This document shows, in pieces, positions 735-64,000 of a stretch of DNA of 64,000 nt. The notes beneath the pieces were generated by a model, which was given only the letters and a program-made list of their open reading frames with translations, did not search any database and was not told the DNA's origin. Position 1 is the stretch's first letter. Every line of letters begins with the position of its first letter. The stretch is taken from the NCBI RefSeq assembly GCF_018278905.1, contig NZ_CP046600.1, positions 4,650,001 through 4,714,000 on the forward strand, in the 5' to 3' direction. The stretch is from Mycobacterium spongiae (lineage in GTDB: Bacteria; Actinomycetota; Actinomycetes; Mycobacteriales; Mycobacteriaceae). The position numbers were made by a program, and so were the translations under genes.

Positions 735-895
735 TGGTCTCACCTGCTTGTCTGACGGTGACTCGGATTGGCATCAGAAGACGCGTCCCACCTGTGCAGG
801 GCGCGATGACGATCTCAGATCCTACTCGGATGGTTGCCCGCCAAGCACCCCTGTTACTCGCTTGTCGGTAGGCTGACCCTACCGCTGGAGGAGAC

Positions 896-2397: not shown

Positions 2398-2401
2398 CCC
2401 G

Positions 2402-2894: not shown

Positions 2895-4393
<1,499 letters not shown>

Positions 4394-4401
4394 AACCGGG
4401 A

Positions 4402-5306: not shown

Positions 5307-5833
5307 CGCCGTGACCAGGTTCCGCTGCGGCCGCCCTCTTTGTGAAGTACCCGAATGTCGTCGATGCGCGCCGCCGCGTCGACCGCTTTGATCATGTCGT
5401 AGAGAGTCAAGGCCGCCACGCTCACGGCCGTCAGCGCCTCCATCTCAACGCCCGTTCGGTCGGTGCTGCGGACGGTCGCGGTGATCTCGATAGCGGCCTC
5501 CGCGACCTTGAAGTCGACGTCAACGCCGGTCAGCGCGAGCTGATGACACAGTGGAATCAAGTCGCTGGTGCGTTTGGCAGCGAGTATGCCCGCGACCCGT
5601 GCGGTAGCCAGCGCATCGCCTTTGGGCAATCCGCCAGTCGATATCAGCGAAACCACCTGGGCCGTGGTGCGTAACGCGCCCGCGGCAACGGCGGTGCGCT
5701 TTGTGGCCCCCTTCTCGGTGACATCAACCATGTGTGCGGCACCTCGCTCATCGAGGTGCGACAGCGCGCCCGGGCTCTGCTCGCCCGACTCACGCGCCCC
5801 CGGCGACTCGGATGCCCTGGAAGCCCTGGCCAT
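5303..5833 (-). CDS. moaC2: Cyclic pyranopterin monophosphate synthase MoaC2
   Basis: Works with MoaA in the first step of molybdenum cofactor synthesis. The family block [15 protein letters not shown] is at residues 87-101, the hallmark [20 protein letters not shown] is at 127-146, and the KEGGRSG tail is near the C-terminus. The 176-residue length includes about 30 residues before the MVDVTEK core, as in the M. tuberculosis protein. It lies 10 bp downstream of the small Rv0863-like gene and overlaps mog by four bases. Confidence 0.95.
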
Positions 5834-5843
5834 CCCCGCCGGC

Positions 5844-6053
5844 CTACCGATTGACGACCGTCACCGGATGGAGGTAGGGCAGGTCGTCGGAGGGCACCGG
5901 AAACTCTATTTCGCCGAAGGGCGACAACGCACCAGTGCGATCAGTCGCTAGTTCGCTTACCGCATGATCGTCCGGGTCGGTGGTCGGCCAGCCGTTATCC
6001 ACGTACCGGGTTTTGCGCACCTTGCCGCTTGCAGTGTCAGCCACGAGCTCCAT
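5844..6053 (-). CDS. Small conserved protein of unknown function, Rv0863-like
   Basis: A 69-residue acidic protein ([23 protein letters not shown] at its start, ending [10 protein letters not shown]) that I recognise as the conserved mycobacterial protein preceding moaC2. No catalytic motif or membrane segment is seen. I chose the ATG at 6053. The frame stays open to a TTG at 6116, but that extension overlaps the start of the divergent helicase-associated gene and looks non-conserved. Cotranscription with moaC2 suggests, but does not prove, a link to molybdenum cofactor metabolism. Confidence 0.7.
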
Positions 6054-6115
6054 TCTGACAGGTCTTGCACCCGCACGCGCTGGAAGGTCGCCGGTGCGGC
6101 CTACGCTGATCAGCA

Positions 6116-8377: not shown

Positions 8378-8401
8378 TGGTGGGTTGAGGAGGTGCACTC
8401 T

Positions 8402-39075: not shown

Positions 39076-39098
39076 GGTCATGAGCGGCCCGGGGTTGG

Positions 39099-42000
39099 TC
39101 ACGGTCCGGTGCCGGTGGTGAGCAGACCCGAGAGGCGCTCGCCGATGTTGCCCAACCCGGAGGTGAAAGCCTCGGTGATCGGGCCCAGTGTGCCAATGTT
39201 GTACACGCCCGAGAGGCCGGCTCCGCGGTTGAGGATGCCGGAGAGCTCGGTGCCGAAGTTGGCGAAACCCGAGGCTGACCCGAGCGTGGGATCTGCGATG
39301 GCGTTGAGCCAGCCCGACATCTCCGAGCCGACGTTGTAGAAGCCCGAGCCGCCGCCACCGCCGGTGTTGAAGAAGCCCGACGACGGCGCGCTGGTGTCGT
39401 TGCCAAAGCCGGGGGTCCCGCCAAAGCCGGCAATCGGGATGCCGATGGCGCCGATGCTGGAATTGGCGTTCACGTTCAGCGGGATCCGGTCGATGACGGC
39501 TGACGGGAGGTCGAACGCGGGGGTGCCTCCCGCCAGCCCGAGGCCCAGCGGCAGCTGCGGAATCAAGGAGCCGCCCACCGGGATGGTCGAGCCCGCGAGG
39601 GTCAGCGACACCGGCAGACCAAGGTGGATTGGCCCGGTGGGGATGGTGAATCCCGGGAAGCTTAAGACCGTGGTGGAGAAGATGATGGGCGCGATCTCGA
39701 AACCCTGGAGCACTGAAAGCTCTCCACCACTGCTTCCCAAGCTCACCGGGAACGTTCCCAAGCTCAGCGGGAACGGGAGGATAGCTAAACCGGGGATGTC
39801 GACTTTGACCCACAAGCTTGAGGAGCTTCCGGACTTCACGTTGACATCCGCGACGGCGACATTGACGTCAAGTCGCGGGGTGACCAGGGTGATGGGGTCG
39901 ATGGTGAGGGTGCCGACGTCGACGGTGGGGGCGAGGTCCAGGTGGATGGAGGGGAGGGGGATGTCCGGGATGGTGATGGGGCCGATGTCGCCGAGTGCGG
40001 TGAAGCCCAGCGGAATCGCCGGGATATGGATGGTTGGCAGCACGGTGGTCGGGCCCAGGCCGCCGGTGACGTCGGCGCCCACAACGGGGAATTGGGGAAT
40101 GGTGTAGGCCAGCTCGAAGCCGGCCAGGCCCTGGAAGTTGCCCCGCCACAGCGTGCCGTTGCTGTAGTTGCCGGCGATGAACGCTCCGGTGTTGACATCG
40201 CCAGAGTTGGCCGCTCCGGTGTTGGCGTGCCCAGTGTTGAACCAGCCGGTGTTGAGGCTGCCGGGGTTGAAGTCGCCGGTGTTGGTGTCACCGACATTGA
40301 AACTGCCGGTGTTGTAGGAACCGGGATTGGCCACACCGGTGTTGAAATCACCGGAGTTGAACAACCCGGTGCTGGCGATCCCGGAGTTCCCGATCCCGGT
40401 GTTGTAGCTGCCGGAGTTGAACACCCCGAAGTTGCCGGTGCCGGTGTTGAAGAACCCGACATTGCCGGTGCCGGAGTTGAACAACCCGACATTGCCGCTA
40501 CCGGAGTTCCAACCACCGAACCCGACCTGGTTATCCCCGACCAGCCCGATCCCGACGTTGTTGTTGCCGGTATTGGCGAACCCGATATTGCCCACACCCA
40601 GGTTGGCGAAGCCGTGGTTGTTGCTGCCGGCATTGCCGAGCCCGATGTTGCCCACCCCGGCCAGGCTCGCGGCCAGACCCGAGTTACCCAACCCGAAGTT
40701 GCCGTCGCCGATGTTGCCGAACCCGACGTTGCCGTCCCCGAGGTTGCCCAACCCCACGTTGTGGTCACCGATATTGCCCGCACCCAGGTTCAAGTTGCCG
40801 ACGTTGCCGAACCCGAAGTCGTTGTTGCCGATGTTGGCCAACCCCGGGTTGACAATCAGGGTCTGGTTCAGCGCCGTACCCACGGCCGACAACCCCGCGA
40901 GATGATCGCCGACGACGTTGATGCCCGAGACCACCGCCGGCGTCCCCGGCGCCACGGTGCTGGTGTTGAAGAAGCCCGACAGCCCCGAACCCAAGTTCGC
41001 CACGCCCGAGCCCAGCGAGCCGACGTTGAGGAAGCCCGAGCCCGCCCCCACCAGCGCGTCGTGGGCCTGGTTCCACCAGCCCGACATGTTCGCACCGAAG
41101 TTGGCGAACCCCGATCCACCACCCGCGCCGGAGTTGAAGAAACCCGACGACGGAGCGGTGGTCGTGTTCCCGATGCCCGGAGTCGCCGGGATGTCGATGA
41201 GCCCGACGTTGCTTCCAATGACGAAGACCGTGCCGTCGACGTTGGCCGGGATCTCCGGGAAGACGATGGCCGGGATGTCCACACCGCCGCCAAATGCGGT
41301 CACATCCAGGTTCAACAACGAGTTCGCCGGGAACGTCAACCCACCCGGGAAAATCGTGATCGGGTCGATGCTGCCGGGCACACCGAAGCGAAGCGAAGTC
41401 GGATGAATATTGAGCCCCGGAGTGTTGAAGGCATGGGCGAGCACATTGATTTCGGCATGCATTGGTCCGGTCTGCGCTGGAGTCGGGGAACCAGAGATGA
41501 CATTGCCGCCCGGGAATGTGTCAACGATTGGAATTGGGAAGTTCCGCCCGAGGGCGACCCAATTCGTGCCGGTCAAGAAGTTGCCCGAATTCCAAAGGAT
41601 GAAGGGCTCTAGCTGCGTTTCCGACCCGAGCGACGCGGCATAATCGAGGACCACTCCGAAGTGGTTAATGCTGGGAATAGTGACGGACGGGACTGCGATC
41701 TGGCCGATGTTCACGCTTCCCGTAATGTCGGGTTTGAGTTCGGGGATGTCGATTTGCGGGATGGTGAACGAGCCCATCGCGATGTTGCCACCCAGGTGCC
41801 CGTTGACTTCCGGAATCGGGATGGGCGGGATGACGACCGGGCCGAAGTTGGCGGTTCCGTGCATGTCCAGGATGGGGATCCTGGGCACGTCTAACTGGTA
41901 GGACAGGCCGAACAGCCCCTGATAGTCGCCCCGCCACAGGATGCCGTTGCTGGCGTTGCCCGACATGAACGCCCCGGTGCCGAGGTTGCCCGAGTTGGCG

Positions 42001-45000
42001 ATGCCGGTATTGACGTGACCGGTGTTGAACCAGCCGGTGTTGAGGCTGCCCGGGTTGACATCACCCGTGTTGGTGTCACCGGCGTTGAAGCTACCGGTGT
42101 TGTAGTGTCCGGGATTGGCCACACCGGTGTTGAAATTGCCGGCGTTGAACAACCCGGTCGAGGCGACACCGGAGTTCCCGATCCCGGTGTTGTAGTCCCC
42201 GGAGTTTCCGATCCCGAAGTTGCCGGTACCGGTGTTGAAGAACCCGACATTGCCATCACCGGAGTTGAACAACCCGACATTGCCACTACCGGAGTTCCAG
42301 CCACCGAACCCGACCTGGTTATCCCCGACCAACCCGATTCCGACGTTGTTGTTGCCGGTATTGCCGAACCCGATATTGCCCACACCCAGATTCGCCAGTC
42401 CGTAGTTGTCGCTGCCCGCATTACCGAACCCGATATTGCCCACACCCGCCAGACCTGCCCCCAGACCCGACCCCAGACCAGAGTTGCCGAACCCGATGTT
42501 TCCGCTGCCAATGTTGGCGAACCCAAGGTTGGCGTCGCCGATGTTGCCCAACCCCAGGTTGTGCCCGCCGAGGTTGGCGGCACCGGAGTTGAAGTCCCCG
42601 ACATTGCCCAACCCCAGGTTGAAGGCACCCACATTGCCTAGCCCGAGGTTGACGATGACGGCCTGGTTCAGTGCGGTCCCCGCGACCGAGAGCCCCGACA
42701 GTTGCTGGCCCACGTTCCCCAGGCCCGACAGCAACGCCGGCGTGCCCAGCGGCAGCGTGCTGGTGTTGTACAGCCCCGACACCCCCGAGCCGACGTTGAG
42801 CACCCCCGAGCCCAACGTGCCGACGTTGAGCACACCCGAACTCGCCCCGACCACCGCGTCGTGGGCCTGGTTCCACCAACCGGAGGAGCCCGCACCGAAA
42901 TTGCCGAAACCCGATGTCCCGCCAGTACCGGAGTTGAAGAACCCCGACGACGGGGTCGGTGTCGTGTTGCCGAAGCCCGGGCTCGCCGGAATATCGATGA
43001 GCGGGATGCTGATATCGGGCATCGTGATGTTCAGGGCGGCGTTCAACGGCAATGGGTCGATCGTCAAACCGCCCGGGAGAATCGTGATCGGATCCAGCCC
43101 TCCGGACGCATCGATCGTCAAGGGAATCGGGTTTTCCGGAATCGACAACCCGCCCGGGAACAACGTAAACGCCGGTAGCCCACCCGACACATCGATATTC
43201 AACGGAATACTCGACGTCGCGATCTCCGGGATGATGATGCGCGGGAGGCTTATCACCATGTTCCCGGTGCTTGGTTTGCTTGGGCCGGAAATGATCGTGA
43301 AGCCCTTCGTGGGTTCCGTGACCTCGAAAAATGGCAGGGAGAACCCGGTTGAGGCGGACGTACCAAGTACCCAATCGAAGCCGAGCGCAGTCAGGCGGAT
43401 CAGCGGAAGCGTGAAGCTACTCGACTCGGTTGTCCCGGGGCTGTCGAGAGGGACCGTGATCTCCTGAGCGGGAATGTCAATGCCCGCGAACAAGACGATG
43501 GGATCGATCACCATCGATTCGTGGATGTCCACCGGTATTCCGGGAACGTCGATCTGCGGGATGGCCAACGGCGCGATCTCGATGAGTTCGTTGAGGCCGA
43601 ACGACATGCCGGGAATATCGATCTGATCGATGACGATCGGCCCGAAGTTGACCGTTTCGGTGAAATCCACCACGGTGCTGCCGTCGATCTCGATGGTGTA
43701 GGAGAAACCCGGCACGCCGTGGAAGTCACCGGTCCACAGCGCCCCGTTGTTGAAATTCCCGGAATTGAACGCACCGGTGTTGACATCACCGGTGTTGAGA
43801 ATCCCAGTGTTGGTGTCGCCGACGTTGAACCAGCCGGTGTTGACATCGCCGGGGTTGAAGTCGCCGGTATTGAAGCTCCCCACGTTGAAGCTGCCCGTGT
43901 TGTGGTCCCCGGGATTGGCCACACCGGTGTTGAAACCACCGGCATTGAACAACCCGGTCGAGGCCATCCCCGCATTCCCGACGCCGGTGTTGTAGTCCCC
44001 CGAGTTGCCGATACCGAAGTTGCCGGTGCCGGTGTTGAAGAACCCGATGTTGCCGGTCCCGGAGTTGAACAACCCGACATTGCCGGCACCGGAGTTCCAG
44101 CCCCCGAACCCGACCAATCCGTCCCCGACCAACCCAATACCGACATTGCCATTGCCGGTGTTGGCGAATCCGATGTTGTAAGCGCCGGCGTTGGCGAATC
44201 CGATGTTGTAGTAGCCGGCATTGCCGACGCCGATGTTATTGAAGCCCGCAGTCAGCCCAGGACCCGCGTTGGCGAATCCGAAGTTGAACTCACCGATGTT
44301 GCCGAACCCAACGTTGCTGTCCCCGAGATTGCCCAACCCCAGGTTCTGCACACCGAAGTTGCCACCACCGAAATTGCCGACCCCGACGTTACCGCCACCC
44401 AGGTTGGACTCGCCGACGTTGCCGAAGCCGAGGTTGACTCCGCCGACGTTGCCCAAGTCAAACAGGTTCTGGATGTTGAGGTACCCCAGCTCGGCGAGGG
44501 CCACGTCGATGAGGCTGGGTTCCCCGGCGCCACCGCCGCCGCTATCGCCGGAGCCGCTGTCGAGCATCGCGCTCAGCCCATCGAGGGACAACCCCGAGAG
44601 GCGATCACCCAGGTTGCCCAGGCCCGAGATCAGCGCCGGGGTCCCCACATCGAGCGTGCTGACATTGAACAACCCCGACAGGCCGGTGCCCGAATTCAAC
44701 AACCCCGACGCCAGCGTGCCGGCGTTGCCCAGACCCGACAGCGCTCCCAGCACCGAGCCCTCGGCGGCCTGGTTCAACCAGCCCGACACCCCCGCACCGA
44801 CGTTGCCGAGACCCGATCCGCCGCCACCGCCGGAGTTGAAGAAGCCCGACGACGCAAGCTCGGTCGAGTTCCCAAGGCCCGGTGTGGGCGCAATGTCGAG
44901 GATCGAGATGTCGAGTGGGCCCGCGCTGGTGAGGATGTCGAAATCCAGCGGGAACGGGTCAATGGTGATACCCGGGATGGTGACCGCTGGAATATCCACC

Positions 45001-48000
45001 GACACATCAATCGGAATGACCTCGGACATCGAGATCCCCTCGATGAGCGAGGCCGGGATATCAACCGGCGGAATCTCGATGGGAATCGACGCACGGATCG
45101 AGATTGCGTTCAGGGCAATGGGCGCGATGTTGAAGTCGAGCGGCACAGTGGTGTCGGGGAGAATGGTAATTGGATCGATACGGATCGCCCCAACCTCACC
45201 CGTTAGGGAACCAATCCCTACGTCAACGCGATAAGGAAATTTGTTGGCAAAGATATTCGTGAGTGTGATGGGGAATGCATGTAGCTCACTCCCAGTTGCC
45301 GGCGCGGACAACGCCGACGTCAGGGTGGTTGCCGGGGCGGTGAAGCCGACGTTGGCGGCGCCGTCGATGCCGAAGTGGATTGCCGGAATGGGGATGTCGG
45401 GCACCGCGAAGCCGTAGTTCGCGGCGCCGCCGATGCCCAGGTGCAGCGGGGGCAACAGCTCGATGTCGGGGATGACGATGGGGGGCAACCCACCGGTGAC
45501 AGTGATCTGGATCGGGAACTCAGGAATCGAAATGCCCAGCGACAGGCCGAACAGGCCCGCATAGTCGCCGCGCCACAGGATGCCGTTGCTGGCGTTGCCC
45601 GACAGGAACGCCCCGGTGCCCAGTGTGCCGGTATTCAGCACGCCGGTATTGGCGTGGCCGGTGTTGAACCAGCCGGTGTTGAGGCTGCCCGGGTTGACAT
45701 CACCGGTGTTGGTGTCCCCGGCGTTGAAGCTGCCCGTGTTGTAGTGGCCGGGATTGGCCACACCGGTGTTGAAGTTACCGGCGTTGAACAACCCGGTGCT
45801 CGCGATCCCGGAGTTGCCGATCCCGGTGTTGTAGCTGCCCGAGTTGGCGATCCCGAAGTTGCCGGTGCCGGTGTTGAAGAACCCGACATTGCCATCACCG
45901 GAGTTGAACAACCCGACATTGCCACTACCGGAGTTCCAGCCCCCGAACCCGACCCGGTTATCCCCGACCAACCCGATCCCGATATTGCCGGTGCCGGCGT
46001 TGGCCAACCCGATATTGCCCAGACCCAGGTTGGCGAAACCGTAGTTGTCGCTGCCCGCGTTGCCGAACCCGATATTGCCCACACCCGCCAGACCGGCCCC
46101 CGGACCCGACCCCGGACCAGAGTTGCCGAACCCGATGTTTCCGCTACCGATGTTGGCGAACCCGAGGTTGGCGTCGCCGATGTTGCCCAACCCCAGGTTG
46201 TGCCCACCGAGGTTGGCCCCACCCACGTTGAGTTCCCCGACATTGCCCCACCCCAGGTTGAAGCTGCCCACCTCGGCCAACCCCAGGTTGACGATGCTGC
46301 TGCCCTGATTGAGCGCCGTGCCCGCCGCGAACAACCCCGACAACTGCTCGCCGATGCTGCCCACACCGGAGAGCACCGCCGGCGTTCCCGCCCCCAGCGT
46401 GCTGGTGTTGTACAGCCCCGACACCCCCGAGCCAACGTTGAGCACCCCCGAGCCCAGCGCGCCGACATTGAACACACCCGAACCCGCGCCCGCCACCGCG
46501 TCGAGGGCCTGGTTCCATAGGCCCGACACCCCGGCACCGACGTTGCCGACACCCGATCCCCCACCGTCGCCGGCGTTGAAAAACCCCGACGACGGAACCG
46601 CGGTGGCGTTGCCGAAACCCGGCACCGCCGGAACATCGATGATCGGGAGCTTGATCGGGCCGATGGTGGCGATCCCGTCCACGGTCGCCGGGACCGTGTC
46701 GATCGTGAACCCGTTGGGCAACAAGGTGAACGCGTCCAGGCCCCCGGACAGGTTGGTGATTCCCGCGGAGGCCTGCGGGAAGGTCAACCCACCCGGGAAG
46801 AACGTGAACGCGTCATTGCCGCCGGACATCCCCAGGCTCACCGGCGTTTGCGCGGGAATGGTGAAACCATCCGGGAACGCGATCCAGGGATTGAGGTCGA
46901 GGGTGCTAGACAGAACCATTTGTTGGTTAAAGGGACCCTCCAGCCTGGGGCCGTCGACGTGGATCCGCCCTGTTTGAATCGGGGGCAAGGTGAGTTGTTC
47001 AACTAAGGCAACCGGGGTGTTGAAGCTGATGGGTCCGAACTGGGTGAACAGCTTGAAGCGGCTGCCGAGGTCAAGAATGGGAGCGGCCGAGATGGCGTTC
47101 TCCCCCAGGCCCACCGATCCGATGACGTGGACCGGGATCGCTGGAACGGTGATTTCCGGGATGGTGAACGGACCCAGGCCCACCGACGCGCTGGTGATGT
47201 CGAAGTGCAGGGCGGGAATCGGGACCGGCGCCGCATACACGGGCCCCAGCCCGGCGCCGACGTGGGTGGTGATCGGGAACTCCGAAATCGTGGGCACGAG
47301 GTGTGCCCCGACCAGGCCCTGATAGTCGCCCCGCCACAACAGCCCGTTGCTGTAGTTTCCCGAGAGGAACGCCCCGGTGCCCACCGCGCCCGAGTTCGCC
47401 AGACCGGTGTTGGCCTGACCCGTGTTGAACCAGCCCGTGTTGAGGCCACCCGGGTTGAAATCACCGGTGTTGGTGTCACCGGCATTGAAACTGCCCGTGT
47501 TGTAGTGGCCGGGATTGGCCACACCGGTGTTGAAGTTCCCAGAGTTGAAAACCCCGGTCGAGGCGATACCGGTGTTGCCGATCCCGGTGTTGAAGTCCCC
47601 GGAGTTCCCGATCCCGAAGTTGCCGGTGCCGCTGTTGAAGAACCCGATGTTGCCGGTACCGGAGTTGAACAACCCGACATTGCCGACACCGGAGTTCCAG
47701 CCGCCGAACCCGCTCAGGTTGTCCCCGACCAGCCCGATGCCCATATTGTTAGTGCCGGTGTTGGCCAACCCGATATTGCCCACACCCAGGTTGGCGAAAC
47801 CGTAGTTGTCGCTGCCGGCATTGCCCCACCCGATATTGCCCACACCTGCCAGACCCGGCCCCGGACCAGAATTACCCAATCCAACGTTGCCCTGCCCGAG
47901 GTTGCCGAACCCGACGTTTCCGTCGCCAAGATTGCCCAGCCCCACGTTGAAATCACCGAGGTTGGCGCCACCCAGGTTGACGTCGCCGACATTGCCCAAC

Positions 48001-50357: not shown

Positions 50358-51139
50358 CGTCCCAGGCCCCTCTCAGCCGATCGACACCACAAGCGGTCCT
50401 GGACTAACCCCGTCGATACAGCCCGAATAACCGTCAGTTCCTCGTTGCTGAGCTACTCCATATGCGCGCTTCAGGACGCGTCATCAGAATATACAGCGAA
50501 CACCGCTAGCTCACTGAAGTTTGGAAATAGTTTTTCTGGCAAGCAATTGGTCGCCGCACCACCCCGACCGGGTTGCCGGTATCGATGTTTGCTGAAAGCG
50601 CGACCATTCCGCCCTGACGAAACCCGCGTTGAACAAGCCCGCACCCACCATCGACCGCGGCAACGCCGGTGTGCGCCCTGCGCTGACTCGCAAGCCACTC
50701 AGGCGCGCGGCCACGCTCGCGGGCCAACACGACCGATCCGAGCCTCGCCGGCCCGAGCTGCCCAAACTCAAGCGCGCTGCAGTCAGCGATCCCGACCGCA
50801 CCATCACCGACCGCACCAATTTCAGCGCTCACGGCCCCGCCGGCACGGGCGACCGACGCAGGTTGCCGCACCCGACGACACGAAGTGGGCGCAATCTCCG
50901 AACCATGTCGGACACGCCGAGGTCCAACAACCCCGCCCACCGCAAACCCTTCGCTAAACCACGAGCCGGCCACAGGTTGAGCGGGTTTGAGTCGCATTGG
51001 CGCCAACGTTGACGCAGCCCAAAATGCACGGCGTTATGCGGCGTTGGCGCCTCACCGCGGAGCCGCTATCGCCGGGATTGCCACCGTGGGAAGAATCGTC
51101 AACTTTCACGCCACCCCGGACTCACGCGGGCGAAACCGA
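50358..51139. other. Non-coding gap between the PPE and PE_PGRS genes
   Basis: This 782-bp stretch lies upstream of the giant PPE gene and downstream of the PE_PGRS gene. Several frames of 100-170 codons are open on both strands, but none shows a signal peptide, a recognisable motif or a convincing ribosome site. The PPE promoter should lie near 50360-50560, where the sequence is less GC-rich. I see no gene in it. Confidence 0.6.
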
Positions 51140-54100
51140 TCAGGGTGCGCCGGTCCCGCCCTGCCCGCCGGTCCCGCCGGTCCCGCCCGTCCCGGCGATC
51201 GTTCCATTGCGCGATCCGCCGATGTCGCCGGGGCCGCCGGGGCCACCCGGGTTCGTGCTGCCGGTGCCGCCGACGCCGCCGTCACCGCCCTTGCCGCCAT
51301 TGCCACCGAAACCGCTGTTGATGCCGCCGGCGCCATTGCCTCCCGTGCCGCCAGTACCACCGACACCGCCCATGCCGCCGGTGCCGGTGCCACTCTGACC
51401 GCCCATGCCGCCGTCGCCGCCGGTGGCGCCGTTGCCGCCGTTGCCACCGGACGAGCCGACGCGCGCGCCGTCGCCGCCATTGCCGCCGGAACCGCCGGAA
51501 CCGCCGGAACCGCCGGTGCCGGTGCCAGTGCTTCCGCCGGGGCCACCCTTGCCGCCGGAGCCGCCGGGTCCACCGTTCTGGCTCGTACCAACCCTGCCGG
51601 GGGCGCCGTCGGAACCGTCGCCGCCGGCACCGCCGTCGCCGCCGGCACCGGTGCCGCTGGCACCGCCGGCACCGCCGGCACCGCCGCGGCTACCGGCACC
51701 GGGCGGGCCACCAGCGATGGCGGCGGCGCCGCCGCGACCACCGGCACCGCCGGCACCGCCGTCGCCGCTGGTACTGGCGCCGCCGGCTCCACCCGTGCCG
51801 CCGACGCCGGCGCCGGCGCCGGTCACGCTGGTGCCGCCGATGCCGCCCACTCCACCGATGCCGCCGTTGCCGCTGATGCTGGTGCCGCCGATGCCGCCGG
51901 CTCCACCAATGCCGCCCACGAGGCCCAAGCTGCCGTCGCCGCCGCGGCCGCCGGCACCCCCGGCTCCGCCGGTGCCGGTGCCGCTGTCGCCACCGGCGCC
52001 GCCGGCTCCGCCCATGCCAGCCGGGATGTTGGGGCCTGACAAATCGCGGACGGCGCTGCCGCCGTTGCCGCCGCGGCCGCCGTTGCCGCCGTCACCCGCC
52101 AGCCCGCCGCTACCGCCGGCCCCGCCGGTGCCCCCTTCGCCACCGTCGAAACCCCAGCCACCGTCGCCGCCTGAGCCACCCTTGGAGGTGGCCCCGGTCG
52201 CGCCCGCTTGACCCGCGGTGGACCCGGCCCCGCCGACCCCACCCGCGCCGCCGTCACCGGAGCGGCCGCCACTGCCCCCGTTGCCGCCGTCATTGCCGTT
52301 TCCGGTGGCATCGGCACCGCGCCCACCATTACCGGGGGTGCCACCGTCACCGCCGGCACCACCGTCACCGCCAACACCATCGACGCCGGCCACCGCGGTC
52401 CCCCCGGCTCCACCCGCGCCACCAGCTCCACCGTTCCCGCCGCGACCGCCGTCCTGACCATTGGCACCGGGGTCAGTCGCGGTCGCCCCGTTGGCTCCGT
52501 CGCCACCGTGGCCGCCGCGCCCGCCAGTGCCGCCTGCCCCGCCGTTACCGCCTTGGCTACCGCCGGCTCCCCCGGTTCCGCCAGCACCACCGTTGCCGGC
52601 CTGCTGTCCCACGTCACCCGGGTCCATCGCGTTCACCCCGCCACCGCCATTGCCCCCACGGCCACCGGTGCCGCCGTCACCGAGCAGCCCGCCAGCACCG
52701 CCTTCACCGCCGGTTCCGCCGGAGCCGCCAGCAACGCCGGCGAAGCCGGCCGAACCCCAGCCACCGTCGCCGCCTGTACCACCCTTGGAGGTGGCCCCGG
52801 TCGCGCCCGCTTGACCCGCGGTGGACCCGGCCCCGCCGACCCCACCCGCGCCGCCGTCACCGGAGCGGCCGCCACTGCCCCCGTTGCCGCCGTCATTGCC
52901 GTTTCCGGTGGCATCGGCACCGCGCCCACCATTACCGGGGGTGCCACCGTCACCGCCGGCACCACCGTCACCGCCAACACCATCGACGCCGGCCACCGCG
53001 GTCCCCCCGGCTCCACCCGCGCCACCAGCTCCACCGTTCCCGCCGCGACCGCCGTCCTGACCATTGGCACCGGGGTCAGTCGCGGTCGCCCCGTTGGCTC
53101 CGTCGCCACCGTGGCCGCCGCGCCCGCCAGTGCCGCCTGCCCCGCCGTTACCGCCTTGGCTACCGCCGGCTCCCCCGGTTCCGCCAGCACCACCGTTGCC
53201 GGCCTGCTGTCCCACGTCACCCGGGTCCATCGCGTTCACCCCGCCACCGCCATTGCCCCCACGGCCACCGGTGCCGCCGTCACCGAGCAGCCCGCCAGCA
53301 CCGCCTTCACCGCCGGTTCCGCCGGAGCCGCCAGCAACGCCGGCGAAGCCGGCCGAACCCCAGCCACCGTCGCCGCCTGTACCACCCTTGGAGGTGGCCC
53401 CGGTCGCGCCCGCTTGACCCGCGGTGGACCCGGCCCCGCCGACCCCACCCGCGCCGCCGTCACCGGAGCGGCCGCCACTGCCCCCGTTGCCGCCGTCATT
53501 GCCGTTTCCGGTGGCATCGGCACCGCGCCCACCATTACCGGGGGTGCCACCGTCACCGCCGGCACCACCGTCACCGCCAACACCATCGACGCCGGCCACC
53601 GCGGTCCCCCCGGCTCCACCCGCGCCACCAGCTCCACCGTTCCCGCCGCGACCGCCGTCCTGACCATTGGCACCGGGGTCAGTCGCGGTCGCCCCGTTGG
53701 CTCCGTCGCCACCGTGGCCGCCGCGCCCGCCAGTGCCGCCTGCCCCGCCGTTACCGCCTTGGATACCGCCGGCTCCCCCGGTTCCGCCAGCACCACCGTT
53801 GCCGGCCTGCTGTCCCACGTCACCCGGGTCCATCGCGTTCACCCCGCCACCGCCATTGCCCCCACGGCCACCGGTGCCGCCGTCACCGAGCAGCCCGCCA
53901 GCACCGCCTTCACCGCCGGTTCCGCCGGAGCCGCCAGCAACGCCGGCGAAGCCGGCCGAACCCCAGCCACCGTCGCCGCCTGTACCACCCTTGGAGGTGG
54001 CCCCGGTCGCGCCCGCTTGACCCGCGGTGGACCCGGCCCCGCCGACCCCACCCGCGCCGCCGTCACCGGAGCGGCCGCCACTGCCCCCGTTGCCGCCGTC

Positions 54101-55192
54101 ATTGCCGTTTCCGGTGGCATCGGCACCGCGCCCACCATTACCGGGGGTGCCACCGTCACCGCCGGCACCACCGTCACCGCCAACACCATCGACGCCGTCA
54201 GCACCGAAGAAGAACCCGCCCTTGCCGCTGGCCCCGGCGTTGCCGCCGCCGCCGCCCTGGCCACCGGCACCGCCGTGACCGCCGTGCTGACCATTGGTGC
54301 CCGGGTCCATCGCGGCGGCGCCGGCGGCGCCTGCCCCGCCGGCACCACCGGCCCCGCCGGCCCCTCCCATACCGCCGGCTCCGCCGTTGCCGAACAACAA
54401 CCCGCCGTTACCGGCGACTCCACCTTGCCCGCCGGTACCGCCGCTACCACCGAGACCGCCGTCCGGCGCACTCATGGTGCCCGCGGTGCCGAGGGTGCCG
54501 GCGGCGCCTGCCCCGCCGGCACCGCCGGCACCACCGTTGCCGAACAACAATGCGCTGCCGCCGACACCGCCGGCCCCACCTCCGACCCCGCCGGTGCCGC
54601 CGGCCCCGCCGTGGCCGAACAACAACCCCCCGGTACGACCTATCCCGCCGGCCGCACCGGCCCCGCCCATCCCCCCGGAACCACCGTTGCCAATCAGCCC
54701 CGCGGCGCCACCGGCCCCACCGGCCTGGCCCGGCGCACCCGACCCGCCGGCCCCGCCGCTACCCCACAGAATCCCGCCATCGCCGCCCCTAGCCCCGGTT
54801 CCTGGCGCCGCGTTGGCGCCGTCGCCGATCAACGGGCGCCCGAACAGCACCTGGGTGGGTGCATTGATCACACCCAGAACCTCGCGCTCAAGGGCCTGCA
54901 GCGGCGAGGCATTGGCCGCCTCAGCGGCCGCATACGCACCCCCCGCACTGGTCAATGCCTGCACGAACTGGGCATGAAAGGCCGCTGTCTGCGCGCCGAG
55001 CGCCTGATAATCGCGGCCAAAACCAGAAAACAACGCCGCGATAGCCGCCGACACCTCATCCGCGCCGGCGGCCAAGACCGCCGTGGTCGGCACGGCGGCT
55101 GCCGCATTGGCCGCCCCCAGCGCCGAACCGATGCTTTGCACTTCGGCGGCGGCCGATACCACGATTTCCGGTGTTGCACTGAGATACGACAT
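51140..55192 (-). CDS. PE_PGRS family protein (1350 aa)
   Basis: Residues 1-95 are the PE domain, starting [25 protein letters not shown] with Pro8-Glu9 and the helical A-rich run. The linker contains the conserved [14 protein letters not shown] near 130. The rest is the glycine-rich PGRS region (GGAGG, GGNGG units), with a 603-bp tandem array in the middle. It ends [12 protein letters not shown] without a separate C-terminal domain. I chose the ATG at 55192, with GGAG upstream, because it gives the family N-terminus; the frame is open to 55249. PE_PGRS proteins are ESX-5-exported and cell-surface associated. Direction is the same as the giant PPE gene. Confidence 0.93.
52176..54197 (-). repeat. 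603-bp tandem repeat array in the PE_PGRS gene (about 3.35 copies)
   Basis: Identical blocks recur with a period of exactly 603 bp: CCACCCTTGGAGG begins at 52176, 52779, 53382 and 53985, and the last copy stops matching after about 54197. Each copy encodes 201 residues. By eye the copies differ in almost nothing; one visible change is GGCTACC to GGATACC near 53761, a Ser to Ile codon. Confidence 0.93.
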
Positions 55193-56255
55193 CGCCGCTC
55201 CGATCAGGTCATCGATGAAATATGCGCTGTGCGCCAGAATTGGTGCCAAATATTAGCGCGGCGCCGACCCGCAATTCCGCGATTCGGTGAGATTATGCTC
55301 TCGGCCGTTGCCTCAAATGGATATGCCCGCAAAATTGGTTCGGAAGGCGTGCATTCAGATGCCATTGGCGGATACCGGGTAGTGCCATCGGGTTCGCGAA
55401 AAAGGTCATCAGCATCACCCAGGCCGGACGGTGCGAGATCGCTCCGACCCGCTGGCCACCCCAGAAGAGGAACCACCGGGCCGCCATCGAGTCGAAGGTG
55501 AACCACCTGGTGAACGTGCGAGCCAGGCGAATCGCTCTGCTGGGTGTTGTGTTGGCGCTCAACCACCGACCAATACTCTCGAATAATAAAGGTGCAGAAG
55601 CGATTTCGTGGGTATCCTGAATCTTGCGCGGCGGGTGCGGCAGTGGCGGGAGTGTGGCCGAGGGGACTTTCCCATGAATCGAGTCCCTACCTTCGCGCGT
55701 CAGCGCATGGCGACACCGCGATTCGAACCCCGTGGCCGCCCGCGAGCTCCTCGGCGTGTCGAACATGCGATCCAGGACCCTGGTCCCTGCCCAAAGACTA
55801 TTCCTAGGCTTTGGCAACATTTGGTGGTAATTACCGCCCGAATGCGTTAGCGAAGACCCGCCAGCCAGGATTCGCGACACGATCATTTCGCGGGCATTCA
55901 TAATCGAGGCAACGAGCTAAATGCCGGGCATTCTTAGTGATGCAACCCGGTGTTGCAGGCAGATACACTGACCGGTTTACACCGCCGCGCCAACAAAACA
56001 CCCGCCGACAAGCCAAATTAGTTGCCCCGAACCACTGAGCCAGCGCGTGGCCGTGGCCCAAGTTCCGCAGCAACGCTACGCCACGTGCAATGACCCAAGC
56101 CCCATCGAGACATCACCTACCAAGTACTCCAACGCACCCGACTGGTGTCGATAGCCCCCGGGACCATAACCAGCCACAACGACACAGCGAGAAGACCGCC
56201 AACGCAACAGGACAAGCGGCCGATCCTCAGCACAGACGAGACCAGCTGGCTCTTG
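55193..56255. other. Non-coding gap between the PE_PGRS gene and the transposase remnant
   Basis: This 1063-bp stretch is lower in GC than its neighbours, and no gene could be supported. A minus-strand frame of about 200 codons (55293-55901) shows no motif or ribosome site. The 5' end (55193-55260) must hold the PE_PGRS leader. Irregular base composition and broken frames suggest decayed or foreign DNA brought in around the insertion sequence. Confidence 0.5.
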
Positions 56256-57516
56256 TCAGACCGCCCGCGTCGATCGTGTCCTCGACGCATCCGCGGACGG
56301 TGACGTGTAAAGCACGGAGATGACGGTCTTGATCTTGGGTGTGCTCTTGCTGACGGCGAAGGTGGGCAGCTGGGCGGTGTGGGCCGCTATCTGGTGCCGG
56401 ATGGCGGCGGGGTTAATGCGGGCGCAGGTGTCAGCCGGGATCGTCTTGTCCTCATCGGTGACGTTCTGGTGGGCTTCGGCGCGACGGTGCGGGTTTGCGG
56501 TGTCATATTCCTTGCTGACCTTGGCGCCGACACGAACTTTGGACATCAGCTATTGCTGAGGAGCAAATAGTTGACCAGCGTCGTCTGCAATGCCCAGATC
56601 TTGTTGAGCAGCAGTAGTTCTGTTTCGTTGTCGTAGCGACGGTAGCCGCCCACGGTGTGCACGATGGCCCAGTTCCTGTGTTCGACGTGGCTGCCGTCGT
56701 TGCTGTTACCCCGCTGCAAACGGATGAGGGTGATCTGGCGTTGCTCACACCAGATGAGCAGCTGGTGGTCGAGGAATTTCGATCCGCTGCCGGCGTCGAT
56801 GCCAAGTACCGAGAACGGCATCGAGCGAGCGAGGTCATCCAGGGCAGCAAGTACCGACGTGTGGGTCTTATTAGCCAGGCTGCGGTTCTCCGTCCAGCCG
56901 GTGGAGATATCGGTGACGATCAGGGTCCAGGCGTGCTTGCCGCCGGGGTTACCGCCGTCGTGGGCGACTTGGTCGAGCTCGACCAACCCGGGCACCGCCG
57001 CGTCCCACTCGGCCCAGATCCGAGCCGGGGTCAGCCTCTCCCGCGGCGATCCCGGCGTGGTGGGCCAGCGAACCCGGAACTCGCTCATGTTGCGTTGGCC
57101 GGCCAGGCGCCGGTCGATGGTTGCTGCCGACATGCCGGCCAATAGTGTCGCGGTGCGATCGTCGATGTCCAACTCGCCGAACGCTTGTAGGATCGGCACC
57201 AGCTCGGGCAGGATCGGGGCGAGTCCCTTGCCCGCCTGCCTGCCCAACACCTCCCAGCAGAAGCTCAGTGCCGCGATCAGCTTTGGCCCGTATTTTGGGG
57301 GGCGCATGGCGCGGTATTGACGACGCTTGGCCGCAACGCGTTTCGCAGCGCCTTGCGGGCATGGTCACGATGCCATCCGGTGAGTGCACACAACTCATCG
57401 AGGATCTTCTGCTTGGCCGCCTTTGGCCGCACTCGGCAACAGCTCAGCGCAGCCTTCGCGCTTGCCGAAGTTGGCATCCTCCCAGTCGTCGAGTGGGCCG
57501 CGCCCTTGGGGCTCAT
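56256..57516 (-). pseudogene. Broken insertion-sequence transposase (integrase-core type)
   Basis: Three pieces of one transposase lie in different frames. The N-terminal part (57516 down to about 57310) has KILDELCALTGWHRDHARKALRNAL, a DNA-binding segment. The middle part (57307-56546) carries the catalytic region with VELDQVAHDGG, then TLIVTDISTGWTENR, and VLGIDAGSGSKFLDHQL. The C-terminal part (56546-56256) starts SKVRVGAKVSKEYDT. A frameshift lies at a six-C tract near 57299-57304 (minus strand), a second shift near 56555-56570, and an in-frame TAG at 56550-56552. It is therefore inactive unless frameshifting occurs. Terminal inverted repeats were not located. The first ATG (57516) overlaps the stop of the neighbouring PPE gene. 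Confidence 0.85.
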
Positions 57517-60500
57517 CCCGACGTCGGCCATGGTCCGGTGCCGGTGGTCAGCAGGCCCGCGAGGCCCTGGCCAATGTTGCCGAATCCGGAGTTGAAGGCC
57601 GCCGTGATCAGGCCAAGTGTGCCAGTGTTGGACACACCCGACAGGCCCGCTCCGCGATTGAGAATGCCGGAGAGTTCGGTGCCGAAGTTGGCGAAGCCCG
57701 AGGCGGATCCGAGCGTCGGATCTGAGATGGCATTGAGCCAGCCCGACATGGCCGAGCCGGCGTTGGAGAAGCCCGAGCCGCCGCCACCGCCGGTGTTGAA
57801 GAAGCCCGACGACGGCGCGGCGGTTGTGTTGCCGAAGCCCGGGGTTCCGCCGAACCCGGCGATCGGGATGTTGATGGCGCCGATGCTGGAATTGGCGTTC
57901 ACGTTCAGCGGGATGCGGTCGAAGACAATCGACGGCAGGTCGAAGGCCGGGATGCCACCCGACAACCCGAGGCCCAGCGGCAGCTCGGGAAGCAGCGAGC
58001 CACCTTGGATGGTGAAGCCCAGAGTGCTCAGCGACACCGGCAGGCCGATGTTGATGGGGCCAGTTGGGAAGGTGAGTCCGGGCAGGTGGAACGTTGCGGT
58101 GGGGTAGGGCAACCATGCCACACTGAATCCCTGGAGCACCGACACGCTTCCTCCGGGGCTGCCCGCAATCGGGTACGCGGCGAGAGAGGCAATCAAGCTG
58201 CTGGCAATCACCATCGGCGAGCTGCTGCCGGACGTCATGGTGATATCCGAAACGCTGGGGAACAGCCCGAATCCGGGGATGGTGAGCGTCACGGGGTCGA
58301 TGGTGGCGGTGCCAATGTCGACGGTGGGGGTGAGGCTCAGGCTGATGGTGGGGATGGGGATCTCCGGGATGACCACGGGACCGACGCCGCCGAGTGCGAT
58401 GAAGCCCAGCGGAATCGACGGGATATGGATGGTCGGCAGCACGGTGATCGGGCCCAACCCGCCGGTGACCTCACCACCCACGGCGGGGAATTGGGGAATG
58501 GTGTATCCGAGTTCGAAGCCGGCCAGGCCTTGGAAGTTGCCCCGCCACAGCGTGCCGTTACTGTAGTTGCCCGCGATGAACGCGCCGGTGTTGACACTGC
58601 CAGAGTTGGCCACTCCGGTGTTGGCGTGGCCGGTGTTCAACCAGCCGGTGTTGATGCTGCCCGGGTTGACATCACCGGTGTTGGTGTCCCCGACATTGAA
58701 ACTGCCCGTGTTGTAACTACCGGGATTGGCCACACCCGTGTTGAAACTCCCAGCGTTGAACAACCCAGTCGAGGCGACACCGGAGTTGCCGATCCCGGTG
58801 TTGAAGTCGCCCGAGTTTCCAACACCGAAATTGCCGGTGCCGGTGTTGAAGAACCCGACATTGCCGGTACCGGAATTGAACAACCCGACATTGCCACTAC
58901 CGGAGTTCCAGCCCCCGAACCCAACCCGGTTATCCCCAACCAACCCAATCCCGATATTGCCGTTGCCGGAATTACCGAACCCAACATTGCCCACACCCAG
59001 GTTCGCGAAACCGTAGTTGTCGCTACCGGCGTTGCCCCACCCGACATTGCCCCCCACCACACCGGCCCGCAGACCCGAATTGCCGAACCCGATGTTGCCG
59101 GCACCGATGTTGCCGAACCCGACGTTGCCACCACCGACATTGCCCAACCCCAGGTTGTGGTCGCCGAGATTGGCCGCACCCAGGTTGACATCCCCGACAT
59201 TGCCCAACCCCAGATTGAGGTCGCCGACGTTGGCCAATCCGAGGCTAGCGATCAGGGTCCGGTTCACCGCAGTGCCCGCCGCGAACACCCCCGACAGCTG
59301 CTGGCCGATGCCGCCCACACCGGAGAGCACCGCCGGGGTGCCCACAGGCACGGTGGCGGTGTTGTACAGCCCCGAGATCCCCGAGCCGACGTTGAGCACA
59401 CCCGAACCCAGCGTGGCGGCATTGAGCACACCCGAACCCGCACCCACCAACGCGTCATGGGCCTGGTTCCACACGCCCGACATGCCCGCACCGACATTGC
59501 CGAAACCCGATCCCCCACCCGCACCGGAGTTGAAGAACCCCGACGACGGAGTCGATGTCGCGTTGCCAAAGCCCGGAGTCGCCGGAATATCGATCAACGG
59601 GATGCTGCTCGGGATCACATACAACGTGCCGTCGACGTTGGCCGGGATCTTCGGGAACACGATGGCTGGGACGCCAACGCCGCCGCCGAAAGCGGTCACA
59701 TCCAGGTTCAACAACGAGTTTCCGGGGAACGTCAGACCACCCGGGAAAATCGTGGCCGCGTCGATGATGCCGGGCACACCGAAGCCCGCGGAAATCTGAT
59801 GAACACTGAGCGCCGGAGTGTCGAAGCCGTCGGTAAACGCACCGAGTGTGGCATGGATTGGTCCGGTCGTGCTGAGCATTGTGAGACCTGACTCGATATT
59901 TCCGAACGGAGGTGCGCCTATACCCGGAAAGAATGCCGCGCCGACACCGATCCAATCCGGTACCAGGCCGAAGATTCCTCCGGGGCGCGTATTCCACACG
60001 AGGATCGGCTCCATCGCCGAGGTCGACCCAACCGACGCGTCCAGACTTAGGGAAATCAGCCTATTGAACGTAATTTCCGGAATGTGGACGGACGCGACGG
60101 AGACGGGACCGAAGCTCACCCTTCCGGTGATGTCCGGGCTGATGGCGGGGATGTCGATTTGCGGGATGGTGAACGAGCCCAGCTCGACGCTACCGCCCAG
60201 GTGGGTGTTGACCGCCGGAATTGGGATGGGCGGGATGACCACCGGGCCGAAGTTGGCGGCTCCGTCCATGTCCAGGAGGGGAATCCTGGGCACGTCGAAT
60301 TCGGCGGACAGGCCGAACAGGCCCTGGTAGTCGCCGCGCCACAGGATGCCGTTGCTGGCGTTGCCCGACAAGAACGCCCCGGTGCCCAACGAGCCGGTAT
60401 TGAGCATGCCGGTGTTGGCGTGGCCGGTGTTCAACCAGCCGGTGTTGATACTGCCCGGGTTGACGTCGCCGGTGTTGGTGTCCCCGACATTGAAACTGCC

Positions 60501-63500
60501 CGTGTTGTAACTACCGGGATTGGCCACACCCGTGTTGAAACTCCCAGCGTTGAACAACCCAGTCGAGGCGACACCGGAGTTGCCGATCCCGGTGTTGAAG
60601 TCGCCCGAGTTTCCAACACCGAAATTGCCGGTGCCGGTGTTGAAGAACCCGACATTGCCGGTACCGGAATTGAACAACCCGACATTGCCACTACCGGAGT
60701 TCCAGCCCCCGAACCCAACCCGGTTATCCCCAACCAACCCAATCCCGATATTGCCGTTGCCGGAATTACCGAACCCAACATTGCCCACACCCAGGTTCGC
60801 GAAACCGTAGTTGTCGCTACCGGCGTTGCCCCACCCGACATTGCCCAGGCCCACCACACCGGCCCGCAGACCCGAATTGCCGAACCCGATGTTGCCGGCA
60901 CCGATGTTGCCGAACCCGACGTTGCCACCACCGACATTGCCCAACCCCAGGTTGTGGTCGCCGAGATTGGCCGCACCCAGGTTGACATCCCCGACATTGC
61001 CCAACCCCAGATTGAGGTCGCCGACGTTGGCCAATCCGAGGCTAGCGATCAGGGTCCGGTTCACCGCAGTGCCCGCCGCGAACACCCCCGACAGCTGCTG
61101 GCCGATGCCGCCCACACCGGAGAGCACCGCCGGGGTGCCCACAGGCACGGTGGCGGTGTTGTACAGCCCCGAGATCCCCGAGCCGACGTTGAGCACACCC
61201 GAACCCAGCGTGGCGGCATTGAGCACACCCGAACCCGCACCCACCAACGCGTCATGGGCCTGGTTCCACACGCCCGACATGCCCGCACCGACATTGCCGA
61301 AACCCGATCCCCCACCCGCACCGGAGTTGAAGAACCCCGACGACGGAGTCGATGTCGCGTTGCCAAAGCCCGGAGTCGCCGGAATATCGATCAACGGGAT
61401 GCTGATGTCGGGCACCGTGATGTTCAGGGCGGTGTTCAGCGGCAATGGGTCGATCGTCAAACCGCCCGGGAAAATCGTGATCGGATCCAGCACGCCCGAC
61501 ACATCGATCGTCAATGGAATCGGGTTTTGCGGAATCGACAGCCCACCTGGGAACAACGTAAATCCCGGCCACCCACCGGAAACGTCAATAGTCAACGGAA
61601 TACTCGAGGTAGCGATCTCCGGGATAGCGATTTCCGGGAGAGAAATCACCAGGCTACCGGTGCTTGCAAGAGTGGGACCGGAATGGATGGTGATGCCCTT
61701 GGTGGGTGCGCTCGGCTCGGTTAGGACTGCGATGCTAGTACCGATGACAAACTGCGTGCGGAGGGCAGTCAAAGTGATGAGGGGAAGCGTCAGCGTTGAT
61801 GGGGGTCCGGGTTCACTGTCGAGGGGGATCGTAATGTCTTGGGCGGCAATCGTGGTGGCCGGGAATAACACGATGGGGTCGATCACGATCGATTCGTTGA
61901 TGTCCAGACCTATCGGGAGAACATCGATCTGCGGGATGGCGAACGGCGCGATCTCGATGAGTTCGTTAATGTCGAACAGCGAGATACCGGCGATATCGAT
62001 CTGATCGATGACGATCGGGCCGAAGTTGAACGTTTCGTCGAAGTCCACCAGCGTGCTGCCGTCGATCTCGATGCTGTAGGAGAAGGCCGGCACGCCGTGG
62101 AAGTCACCCGTCCACAGCGCCCCGTTGTTGAAATTGCCGGAATTGAACGCACCGGTGTTGAGATCACCGGTGTTGAACCAGCCGGTGTTGACATCACCGG
62201 TGTTGAACCAGCCGGTGTTGACATCGCCGGGGTTGAAGTCACCGGTGTTGAAGCTGCCCACGTTGCCGCTGCCCGTGTTGTAGCCACCGGCGTTGGCCAC
62301 ACCGGTGCTGAAACTGCCAACGTTGAATAGTCCGGTCGAGGCTGTCCCAGAGTTTCCGATGCCGGTGTTGTAGTCCCCCGAATTCCCAATCCCCCAGTTG
62401 CCGGTGCCGGTGTTGAAGAAGCCGATGTTGCCGGTCCCGGAGTTGAACAACCCGACATTGGCCGTCCCGGAGTTCCAGCCCCCGAACCCGACTAGGTTGT
62501 CCCCGACCAGCCCGATACCGATATTGCCGGTGCCGGTGTTGGCCAAGCCGATGTTGCCCACACCCAGGTTCGCGAAACCATAGTTGTCGCTGCCGGCATT
62601 ACCCCACCCGATGTTGCCCAGACCCACCAAATCGGCCCGCAGACCAGAGTTGCCGAATCCGACGTTGCCGTCGCCGAGGTTGCCGAACCCGACGTTGCCG
62701 TTCCCGAGGTTGCCGAAGCCGAGGTTGTTTCCACCATTGTTGCCGCCCCCGAGATTGCCGTGCCCGACATTGCCCGCGCCCACGTTGAACTCGCCGATGT
62801 TGCCGAAGCCGAGGTTGATCCCGCCGAGGTTGCCCAAATCGAACAGGTTCTGGATGTTCAGGTGCCAGAGCTCGGCAAGCGCCACGTCGATGATGCTGGG
62901 GTCGCCGGAGCCACCGCCGCCGCTATCGCCGGAGGGGCTGTCCAGCATTGCGCTTAGCCCGTCGAGGGACAAACCCGAGAGGTGATCACCCAGGTTGCCC
63001 AGACCCGAGATCAGCGCCGGCGTCCCAACGTCGAGCGTGCTCACGTTGAACGACCCGGAAATGCCGGTGCCCGAGTTCAGCACACCCGAGGCCAGCGTGC
63101 CGGCGTTGCCCAGACCCGACAACACCCCGAGTACCGAGGCCTCGGCGGCTTGGTTGAACCAGCCCGATACGCCCGCACCGATGTTGCCGATGCCCGATCC
63201 GCCGCCAGCGCCGGAGTTGAAGAAGCCCGACGACGCCAGCTCGGTCGAGTTCCCAAAGCCCGGTACCGCCGGGATGTCGAGGATCGAGATGTCGATGGGA
63301 CCGGCGCCCGTGAGAAGGTCGAAATCCAGCGGGATCGGGTCAAGCGTGACACCCGGCACAGTGACCGCGGGAATATCCACCGACACATCAATCGGCAAGA
63401 CCTCGCTCATCGATATCCCCTCGATGAGCGAGGCGGGGATATTCATTGGCGAAATCGCTATAGGAATCGACTCGCTGATCGAGATTGCGTCCAGACCAAT

Positions 63501-64000
63501 ACGATCCACGCCGAATAGTAGCGGCTCATTGAAGGCGGAGACAATCGTAATCGGAGCGAGACCGATGGGCCCAATTATTCCCGATAACCCAACAATTGGA
63601 AGATCCACTCCATAAAGGAATGGGTCGAGAGAGATATTCGAGAGTGTGATTGTGGGACCACTCAGACCCCCATTGAATGGCAACGCGGACAGCAGGGTGG
63701 TGGCCGGGGCGGTGAAGTCGGCGTTGGCGGCACCGTCGATGCCGATGTGGATTGCCGGGATGGGGATGTCGGGCACCGCGAAGCCGTAATTCACTGCGCC
63801 GCCGATACCGAGGTGCAGCGGGGGAACGAGCTCGATATCGGGGATGACGATGGGAGGCACCCCACCGGTGACGGTGATCTGGATTGGGAACTCAGGAATC
63901 GAAATGCCCAACGACAGGCCGAACAGGCCCTGGTAGTCGCCGCGCCACAGGATGCCGTTGCTGGCGTTGCCCGACAAGAACGCCCCGGTGCCCAACGAGC
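57513..64000 (-). CDS. Second PPE-MPTR protein, C-terminal 2160 residues (cut by window edge)
   Basis: This frame is open to the end of the window, so the start and the PPE domain are missing here. It has the same supermodules as the giant PPE gene: pentapeptide repeats (FNTGxxNTG) joined by beta-rich segments. Its C-terminus reads [16 protein letters not shown], whereas the first gene ends [11 protein letters not shown] with a TGA at the Trp position. Recognisable unit boundaries fall near 58560, 60350, 62125 and 63955. Its modules match those of the first gene in the same order from the C-terminus. No frameshift is seen in the visible part. The role is unknown. Confidence 0.92.
58679..59606 (-). 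repeat. Copy 1 of a ~930-bp near-identical repeat in the second PPE-MPTR gene
   Basis: This segment matches 60473-61403 almost base for base. The single difference I saw is a 3-bp deletion near 59048-59055 (TTGCCCCCCACC against TTGCCCAGGCCCACC), removing one Leu codon. Outside these limits the two supermodules diverge strongly. Confidence 0.85.
60473..61403 (-). repeat. Copy 2 of the ~930-bp near-identical repeat in the second PPE-MPTR gene
   Basis: Matching copy of 58679-59606, offset by 1794 bp, or 1797 bp after the 3-bp indel. Upstream and downstream of it the modules differ in sequence, so the identity is a local event and not simply the general repeat pattern. Confidence 0.85.

Follow-up and report, generated by a model that had tools for sequence, protein, structure and literature searches.

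A duplicated pair of giant PPE-MPTR genes in Mycobacterium spongiae carries six non-repeat modules in an old, fixed order

Introduction

What does the shared layout of two giant, neighboring PPE-MPTR genes say about their origin, and which of their parts are held constant? The question is raised by a 64,000-nucleotide stretch of DNA (here called the window) from the 5.58-Mb, single-contig genome of Mycobacterium spongiae, in which the following two genes were delimited:

39099 to 50357, minus strand: gene A, a PPE-MPTR gene of 3752 aa, with a PF00823 match (200.1 bits) and 37 PF01469 stretches
57513 to 68774 (57513 to 64000 inside the window), minus strand: gene B, 3753 aa, which extends 4.8 kb beyond the window

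A similar layout is known from the PPE54-PE_PGRS-PPE55-IS-PPE56 region of M. tuberculosis, where giant PPE-MPTR genes lie beside PE_PGRS genes and an insertion sequence (IS) fragment; the likeness is one of arrangement. Warholm and Light (2016; PMC4858275) describe PPE_MPTR proteins as secreted through ESX-5 and surface exposed, with spacers about 100 or 220 aa long that resemble one another poorly, and attribute the periodic cassettes of one long protein to recent expansion. Passages of Gey van Pittius (2006; PMC1660551) place the expansion of the PPE-MPTR subfamily after the split of the M. avium complex and before the divergence of M. marinum.

Results

Two colinear members of the PPE-MPTR subfamily

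Gene A has an N-terminal PPE domain (PF00823, residues 2 to 166), and the first 180 residues of gene B, the 5' end of which lies beyond the window, are 87.8% identical to those of A, an alignment that points to a PPE domain in B as well. Pentapeptide repeats of the NxGxGNxG type (PF01469) account for 37 stretches in A and, in the part of B inside the window, for 18. With a PPE domain at the N terminus and numerous pentapeptide stretches, the genes share the features of the PPE-MPTR subfamily (PF00823 plus PF01469). By blastn, the two genes form a single end-to-end alignment of 11,366 columns with 82.5% DNA identity. All four motif pairs that an earlier note on this DNA had listed in the same order, at an offset of about 18.4 kb, were found, with each string occurring once per gene (at 40106, 41891, 43724, and 45533 in A and at 58505, 60296, 62102, and 63905 in B; offsets of 18399, 18405, 18378, and 18372 bases, respectively).

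Six beta modules in one order

A, B, and a paralogue in the same genome, C (genome positions 1234203 to 1245446), were divided into MPTR blocks (m0 to m6) and non-pentapeptide beta segments (b0 to b5). In the window, the beta segments are as follows:

48369 to 49034, minus strand: A b0, residues 442-663
46623 to 47315, minus strand: A b1, residues 1015-1245
44883 to 45554, minus strand: A b2, residues 1602-1825
42981 to 43715, minus strand: A b3, residues 2215-2459
41181 to 41915, minus strand: A b4, residues 2815-3059
39414 to 40127, minus strand: A b5, residues 3411-3648
63264 to 63926, minus strand: B b2, residues 1617-1837
61374 to 62093, minus strand: B b3, residues 2228-2467
59577 to 60320, minus strand: B b4, residues 2819-3066
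57843 to 58526, minus strand: B b5, residues 3417-3644

Past position 64000, gene B goes on with b1 and then b0, as expected from A. In A, B, and C, these segments measure 221 to 253 aa, which fits the peak at about 220 aa among the spacers described in PMC4858275, likewise non-pentapeptide sequences between pentapeptide blocks. No Pfam family scored above its cutoff when two of the beta segments of A were scanned singly. Between A and B, segments at the same position have protein identities of 82, 74, 72, 75, 60, and 65% (b0 to b5), and those of A or B are 52 to 69% identical to their counterparts in C, whereas all pairs from different positions among the three genes are only 24 to 40% identical (43 to 54% in DNA). 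It is by these six position-specific, non-pentapeptide modules that the type represented by A, B, and C is distinguished within the PPE-MPTR subfamily.

Profile searches recovered the order b0-b1-b2-b3-b4-b5 in 13/13 complete long genes, a complete gene being an open frame with both stops within the fetched stretch. Profiles built from A and B led to 11 of these (A, B, C, two G104 genes, and those of AWTP1, G006, gordonae DSM 44160 and CTRI 14-8773, intermedium, and asiaticum 1081914.2), with A and B matching their own profiles by construction; profiles from nine of the 11 led to the remaining two (G184 and G251). The same order is present in genes of a shorter type (G104, 3216 aa; G063, 3169 aa), in which b1 and b2 are 12 to 13 aa apart, and in four compact genes (frames of 1776 to 1831 aa), in which the beta segments abut and a single internal MPTR block lies between b2 and b3; in two of these four, the profile missed b2, which the b2 search had detected there. 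Genes that are cut by contig ends or split (AWTP2, simulans, asiaticum 1275241.6 and DSM 44297, a metagenome-assembled genome [MAG], G226, and a 1577-aa frame of G023) likewise have all their modules in order, and no permutation was found among the long, short, compact, cut, or split genes examined.

The gene type is uncommon: b2 was matched in 11 of 148 genus genomes and b3 in 17 of 396, counts that include the M. spongiae genome itself and weak partial matches. Six further giant PPE genes in the M. spongiae genome lack every one of b0 to b5 at an E value of 1e-3 (0/6). A fifth compact gene was seen in G226. The six-module gene is split into three open frames in G226 and into two in asiaticum DSM 44297, its modules still ordered, by either decay or sequencing errors. 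Finally, a 3317-base contig labeled Bacillus subtilis SK7B5 (L033) encodes a PPE-type b0-b1-b2 series and is probably mislabeled or contaminating mycobacterial DNA.

Since paralogue C and genes of other genomes share the order of the modules, this order is older than the duplication that gave rise to A and B, and colinearity by itself is thus no evidence of that duplication. The earlier note had taken the module order as its sign, an argument that has to be given up.

Trees of the beta modules

What does speak for a duplication is phylogeny. When 97 beta segments taken from 18 genes were placed in one tree, built independently of the position labels (which came from the profiles), every position formed one clade (support of 100/99 for b0, 100/98 for b1, 100/100 for b2, 100/99 for b3, 97/97 for b4, and 97/89 for b5), and 0/97 segments fell outside the clade of their own position, the placement of G063short_b4, on a long branch, being unsure. 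Cross-gene positional pairs are present throughout, with A being the sister of B at all six positions (bootstrap, 100). A tree of the concatenated beta segments also united A and B (100/100) and joined C to asiaticum and the gordonae group (100/99); A and B did not group with their own paralogue C, and the tree leaves their point of attachment without resolution. On the basis of their sister relationship at all six positions and in the concatenated tree, A and B are duplicates. The six beta classes match one another in profile-profile comparisons (probability, 91 to 99%) and, on that account, may all descend from one ancient module, although their biased composition makes this a tentative suggestion.

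The duplicated unit includes a PE_PGRS gene

Three further features lie between A and B:

50442 to 50974, no strand assigned: leader upstream of A, about 73% identical to copies at 68947 to 69481 (upstream of B) and 71593 to 72109
51140 to 55249, minus strand: PE_PGRS gene, the partner of A in the unit (PF00934, 111.3 bits; PF21526, 42.1 bits)
56191 to 57423, minus strand: rve-like IS remnant where the two units join, with 84.5% identity to 69757 to 70991

The homologous stretch of the two PPE genes (39088 to 50427 versus 57517 to 68844) is followed upstream by homology of the leaders (50442 to 50974 versus 68947 to 69481; 73% identity) and of the 5' part of the PE_PGRS genes (54659 to 55737 versus 75024 to 76093, 76.7% identity; 55925 to 56034 versus 76281 to 76389, 77.5% identity), while none was found on the downstream side, 3' of the two PPE genes. 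The gene at 51140 to 55249 encodes a PE domain followed by PGRS repeats, matching PF00934 and PF21526, and the corresponding partner of B is located at 73 to 76 kb. Because the upstream homology runs through the leader into the PE_PGRS gene, the duplicated unit, judged by homology, is a PE_PGRS gene, a leader, and a PPE-MPTR gene rather than one gene. The earlier proposal of a whole-gene duplication was therefore right as to the event and too narrow as to its extent; similarly, the PE_PGRS gene and the IS remnant do lie between the copies, as had been remarked, but the former belongs to A, and B has its own. Within this PE_PGRS gene, reading-frame units exactly 603 bases apart (52633 to 54471) form a large internal tandem repeat.

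Matches of the IS remnant and of its second copy (69757 to 70991), which has a longer frame, to PF00665 (the rve integrase-core domain) score 17.5 and 21.7 bits, respectively, both below the cutoff of 32.6. Beside the rve-like copy, a further PPE 5' end was found (71405 to 71495), consisting of a promoter-proximal stretch, a start codon, and 12 bases, after which the sequence is unrelated; its leader is 83.7% identical to that of B and 73.4% identical to that of A. We read this element as the putative remainder of a further copy, with a short 5' duplication as the alternative. A fourth copy of the leader (76% identity), 0.92 Mb away at genome positions 3783808 to 3784371 (L045:9808-10371), lies directly upstream of a PE_PGRS-like gene, which led us to reject the idea that the leader is exclusive to PPE genes: one leader serves both families.

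Paralogue C occupies the shared neighborhood

Of 15 flanks of the genes of relatives that were tested, 14 match the neighborhood of C and none matches those of A and B; the remaining one, on the downstream side in intermedium and 171 bases long, is without any match. For asiaticum and G184, both sides of the gene match the two sides of C; in G251 and the gordonae group, the two flanks correspond to a site a few kilobases upstream of C. Since the flanks of relatives match the surroundings of C and not those of A and B, C, by this comparison, sits in a neighborhood common to other species and A and B do not, with exact placement applying only to asiaticum and G184. We also considered whether C has the same leader and a PE_PGRS partner, and discarded this because the sequence upstream of A has no match within 20 kb upstream of C, the leader thus being absent there; a crude filter revealed no glycine-rich or PE-like frame in those 20 kb or in the 4.5 kb after C.

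MPTR blocks have been homogenized

The behavior of the pentapeptide blocks is different, and the earlier description of the genes as built from supermodules does not hold in this respect: whereas the beta segments keep their positions, blocks m1, m2, m4, and m5 do not form clades by position. A tree built from 60 MPTR blocks of 10 genes gave position clades for m0 (94/92) and m3 (100/99) alone, although some positional signal is left in the others (7, 5, 7, and 6 changes, respectively, versus a shuffled mean of 9.4). Blocks of A and B pair up at m0, m1, and m3 and not at m2, m4, and m5. Sister blocks belonging to a single gene are found in A (m2 and m4), in B (m2, m4, and m5), in both long G104 genes, and in asiaticum; overall, grouping by gene is unclean (40 changes versus a shuffled mean of 45). 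The internal block of the compact genes occupies the place of m3, between b2 and b3, but was not accepted as such, since it fits the m0 profile best in 4/4 genes and the m3 profile worst in 3/4, with small differences in score. The following stretches are nearly identical to others:

60321 to 61373, minus strand: B m4, homogenized with m2 and m5 (95.5 to 97.8% identity)
58527 to 59576, minus strand: B m5, homogenized with m2 and m4 (95.5 to 97.8% identity)
48780 to 50357, minus strand: first 1578 nt of gene A, a probable A-B conversion tract, 94.4% identical to gene B

The mutual identity of m2, m4, and m5 of B, as read from one assembly, extends over 1.09 to 1.11 kb and ends within about 40 nt or less of the MPTR limits, with 16 to 38 mismatches, comprising substitutions and indels, between blocks. 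No internal repeat pairs at 93% were found in A or C, and the homogenized pairs excepted, blocks m0 to m5 are 68 to 88% identical in DNA. Between A and B, fourfold-degenerate sites are 97.9% identical in m0 (n = 144) and 70 to 80% identical in m1 to m5 (Fisher P = 5e-14, from rounded counts). We infer that these near-identical stretches are conversion tracts, any of which may be older or of composite origin. For M. tuberculosis, PMC13061034 reports gene conversion at loci that include ppe54, ppe55, and ppe56.

Repeats were also observed in other giant PPE genes of this genome. One of these, with a 3629-aa frame (L007:5904-13554; genome positions 3647904 to 3655554), contains two tandem 3820-bp stretches with 99.9% identity, which would be either a very recent internal duplication or an effect of assembly; another (L008:8722-12722) contains an internal 1234-bp repeat with 97.2% identity.

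Variable centers and substitution rates

A survey of the beta segments of gene A (window positions 39414 to 49034) showed that each has a poorly conserved center of 24 to 50 alignment columns (about 18 to 43 residues in A) between conserved shoulders, column conservation being 0.41 to 0.55 in the cores and 0.67 to 0.82 in the shoulders. By the Nei-Gojobori method, shoulder dN/dS was 0.09, 0.10, and 0.13 for pairs within the gordonae group, 0.14 for asiaticum, 0.47 for A-B, and 0.44 for A-C; in the cores, the alignments of which are uncertain, the values were 0.09, 0.09, and 0.19 (gordonae group), 0.37 (asiaticum), 0.91 (A-B), and 0.95 (A-C). Such rates fit a picture of orthologues under constraint and of paralogues that diverge faster. 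Positive selection on the cores is not claimed, since their dN/dS never exceeds 1 (maximum, 0.95). Two AlphaFold predictions (mean pLDDT, 32.3 and 36.6) gave no usable model.

Discussion

The best explanation of these observations, to which we assign a probability of about 0.78, is that an old gene type with six modules was duplicated in tandem as part of a larger unit, with the beta modules remaining fixed and the MPTR blocks undergoing conversion. The ancestral type would have consisted of a PPE domain followed by b0 to b5 in fixed order, with MPTR blocks in between. While C would have remained in the neighborhood where other species carry their gene, the unit of PE_PGRS gene, leader, and PPE-MPTR gene would have been tandemly duplicated at a separate locus, with a truncated 5' end as the sole trace of at least one additional copy. 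Beta modules that stand at different positions (43 to 54% identical in DNA) are probably too dissimilar to recombine with one another and would thereby keep their places, whereas MPTR blocks (68 to 88%) are similar enough that they may have been copied over each other by gene conversion, both inside single genes and across the A-B pair; in this way the order would be locked. Genes that lose a module are presumably eliminated by selection.

This reading differs from the one published for PPE-MPTR proteins in PMC4858275: here, the spacers are old and specific to their positions, and signs of recent copying are confined to the MPTR blocks. Following the published view, each giant gene would have expanded separately by recent duplication of cassettes of MPTR block plus spacer, with the order of modules being incidental. 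MPTR blocks of a single gene can indeed be nearly identical, as in B, but the different beta modules of one gene share merely 24 to 40% of their residues and each position forms one clade across genes and species, so that cassette growth is contradicted for this gene type and retains hardly any probability. The near-identical stretches themselves (m2, m4, and m5 of B and the first 1.6 kb of A and B) might be products of assembly error, given that long, near-identical repeats are readily misassembled and that another PPE gene of this genome contains the 3820-bp repeat at 99.9%; the substitutions and indels (16 to 38 mismatches) that separate the three B blocks argue against this, as does the recurrence of within-gene sister blocks in other genomes, and we consider it improbable. 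It is likewise improbable that purifying selection, instead of conversion, accounts for the likeness of A and B over their first 1.6 kb. PPE domains are in general under functional constraint; the identity peaks in m0, however, and extends there to fourfold sites (97.9% versus 70 to 80% in m1 to m5).

An unlikely scenario, but one with some weight, is that the A/B unit, single or already doubled, was acquired horizontally from another species and is not a local duplicate of the old paralogue. The separation of A and B from their own C, which groups with asiaticum and gordonae, is consistent with such a transfer, as are the lack of matches between the flanks of A and B and those of relatives and the rve-like remnant at the junction of the units. 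On the other hand, no close donor appeared among the 396 genus genomes, a partial sample of the genus, covered by the b3 search, in which the best outside match was 63% identical.

Giant PPE-MPTR genes are usually characterized by their repeats. For the gene type that we describe here, under the preferred reading of an old six-module gene with converted MPTR blocks, the data suggest that the beta modules, not the repeats, are the constrained part, given the single order across species, the dN/dS of about 0.1 between gordonae-group orthologues, and the absence of any segment (0/97) from its position clade. No paper on position-specific PPE spacers was found in a search confined to the open-licence literature. 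Like other members of the PPE-MPTR subfamily, the proteins may be exported to the surface; the MPTR blocks may act there as spacers that can replace one another, and the six beta modules, each with a variable center, may be the distinct working or exposed parts. Tentatively, and at somewhat below even odds, we picture a predicted surface protein with six fixed heads, these being old, distinct beta modules ordered by selection, and with replaceable spacers of MPTR repeats homogenized by conversion.

In practical terms, b0 to b5 offer a coordinate system for aligning and comparing such genes and indicate which parts to express for structure determination. We predict that, at the strain level, conversion and length change will be found in the MPTR blocks, with the beta modules spared. 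If the picture of six fixed heads is true, the reported "recent cassette expansions" would, at least for this gene type, be homogenized spacers between old modules.
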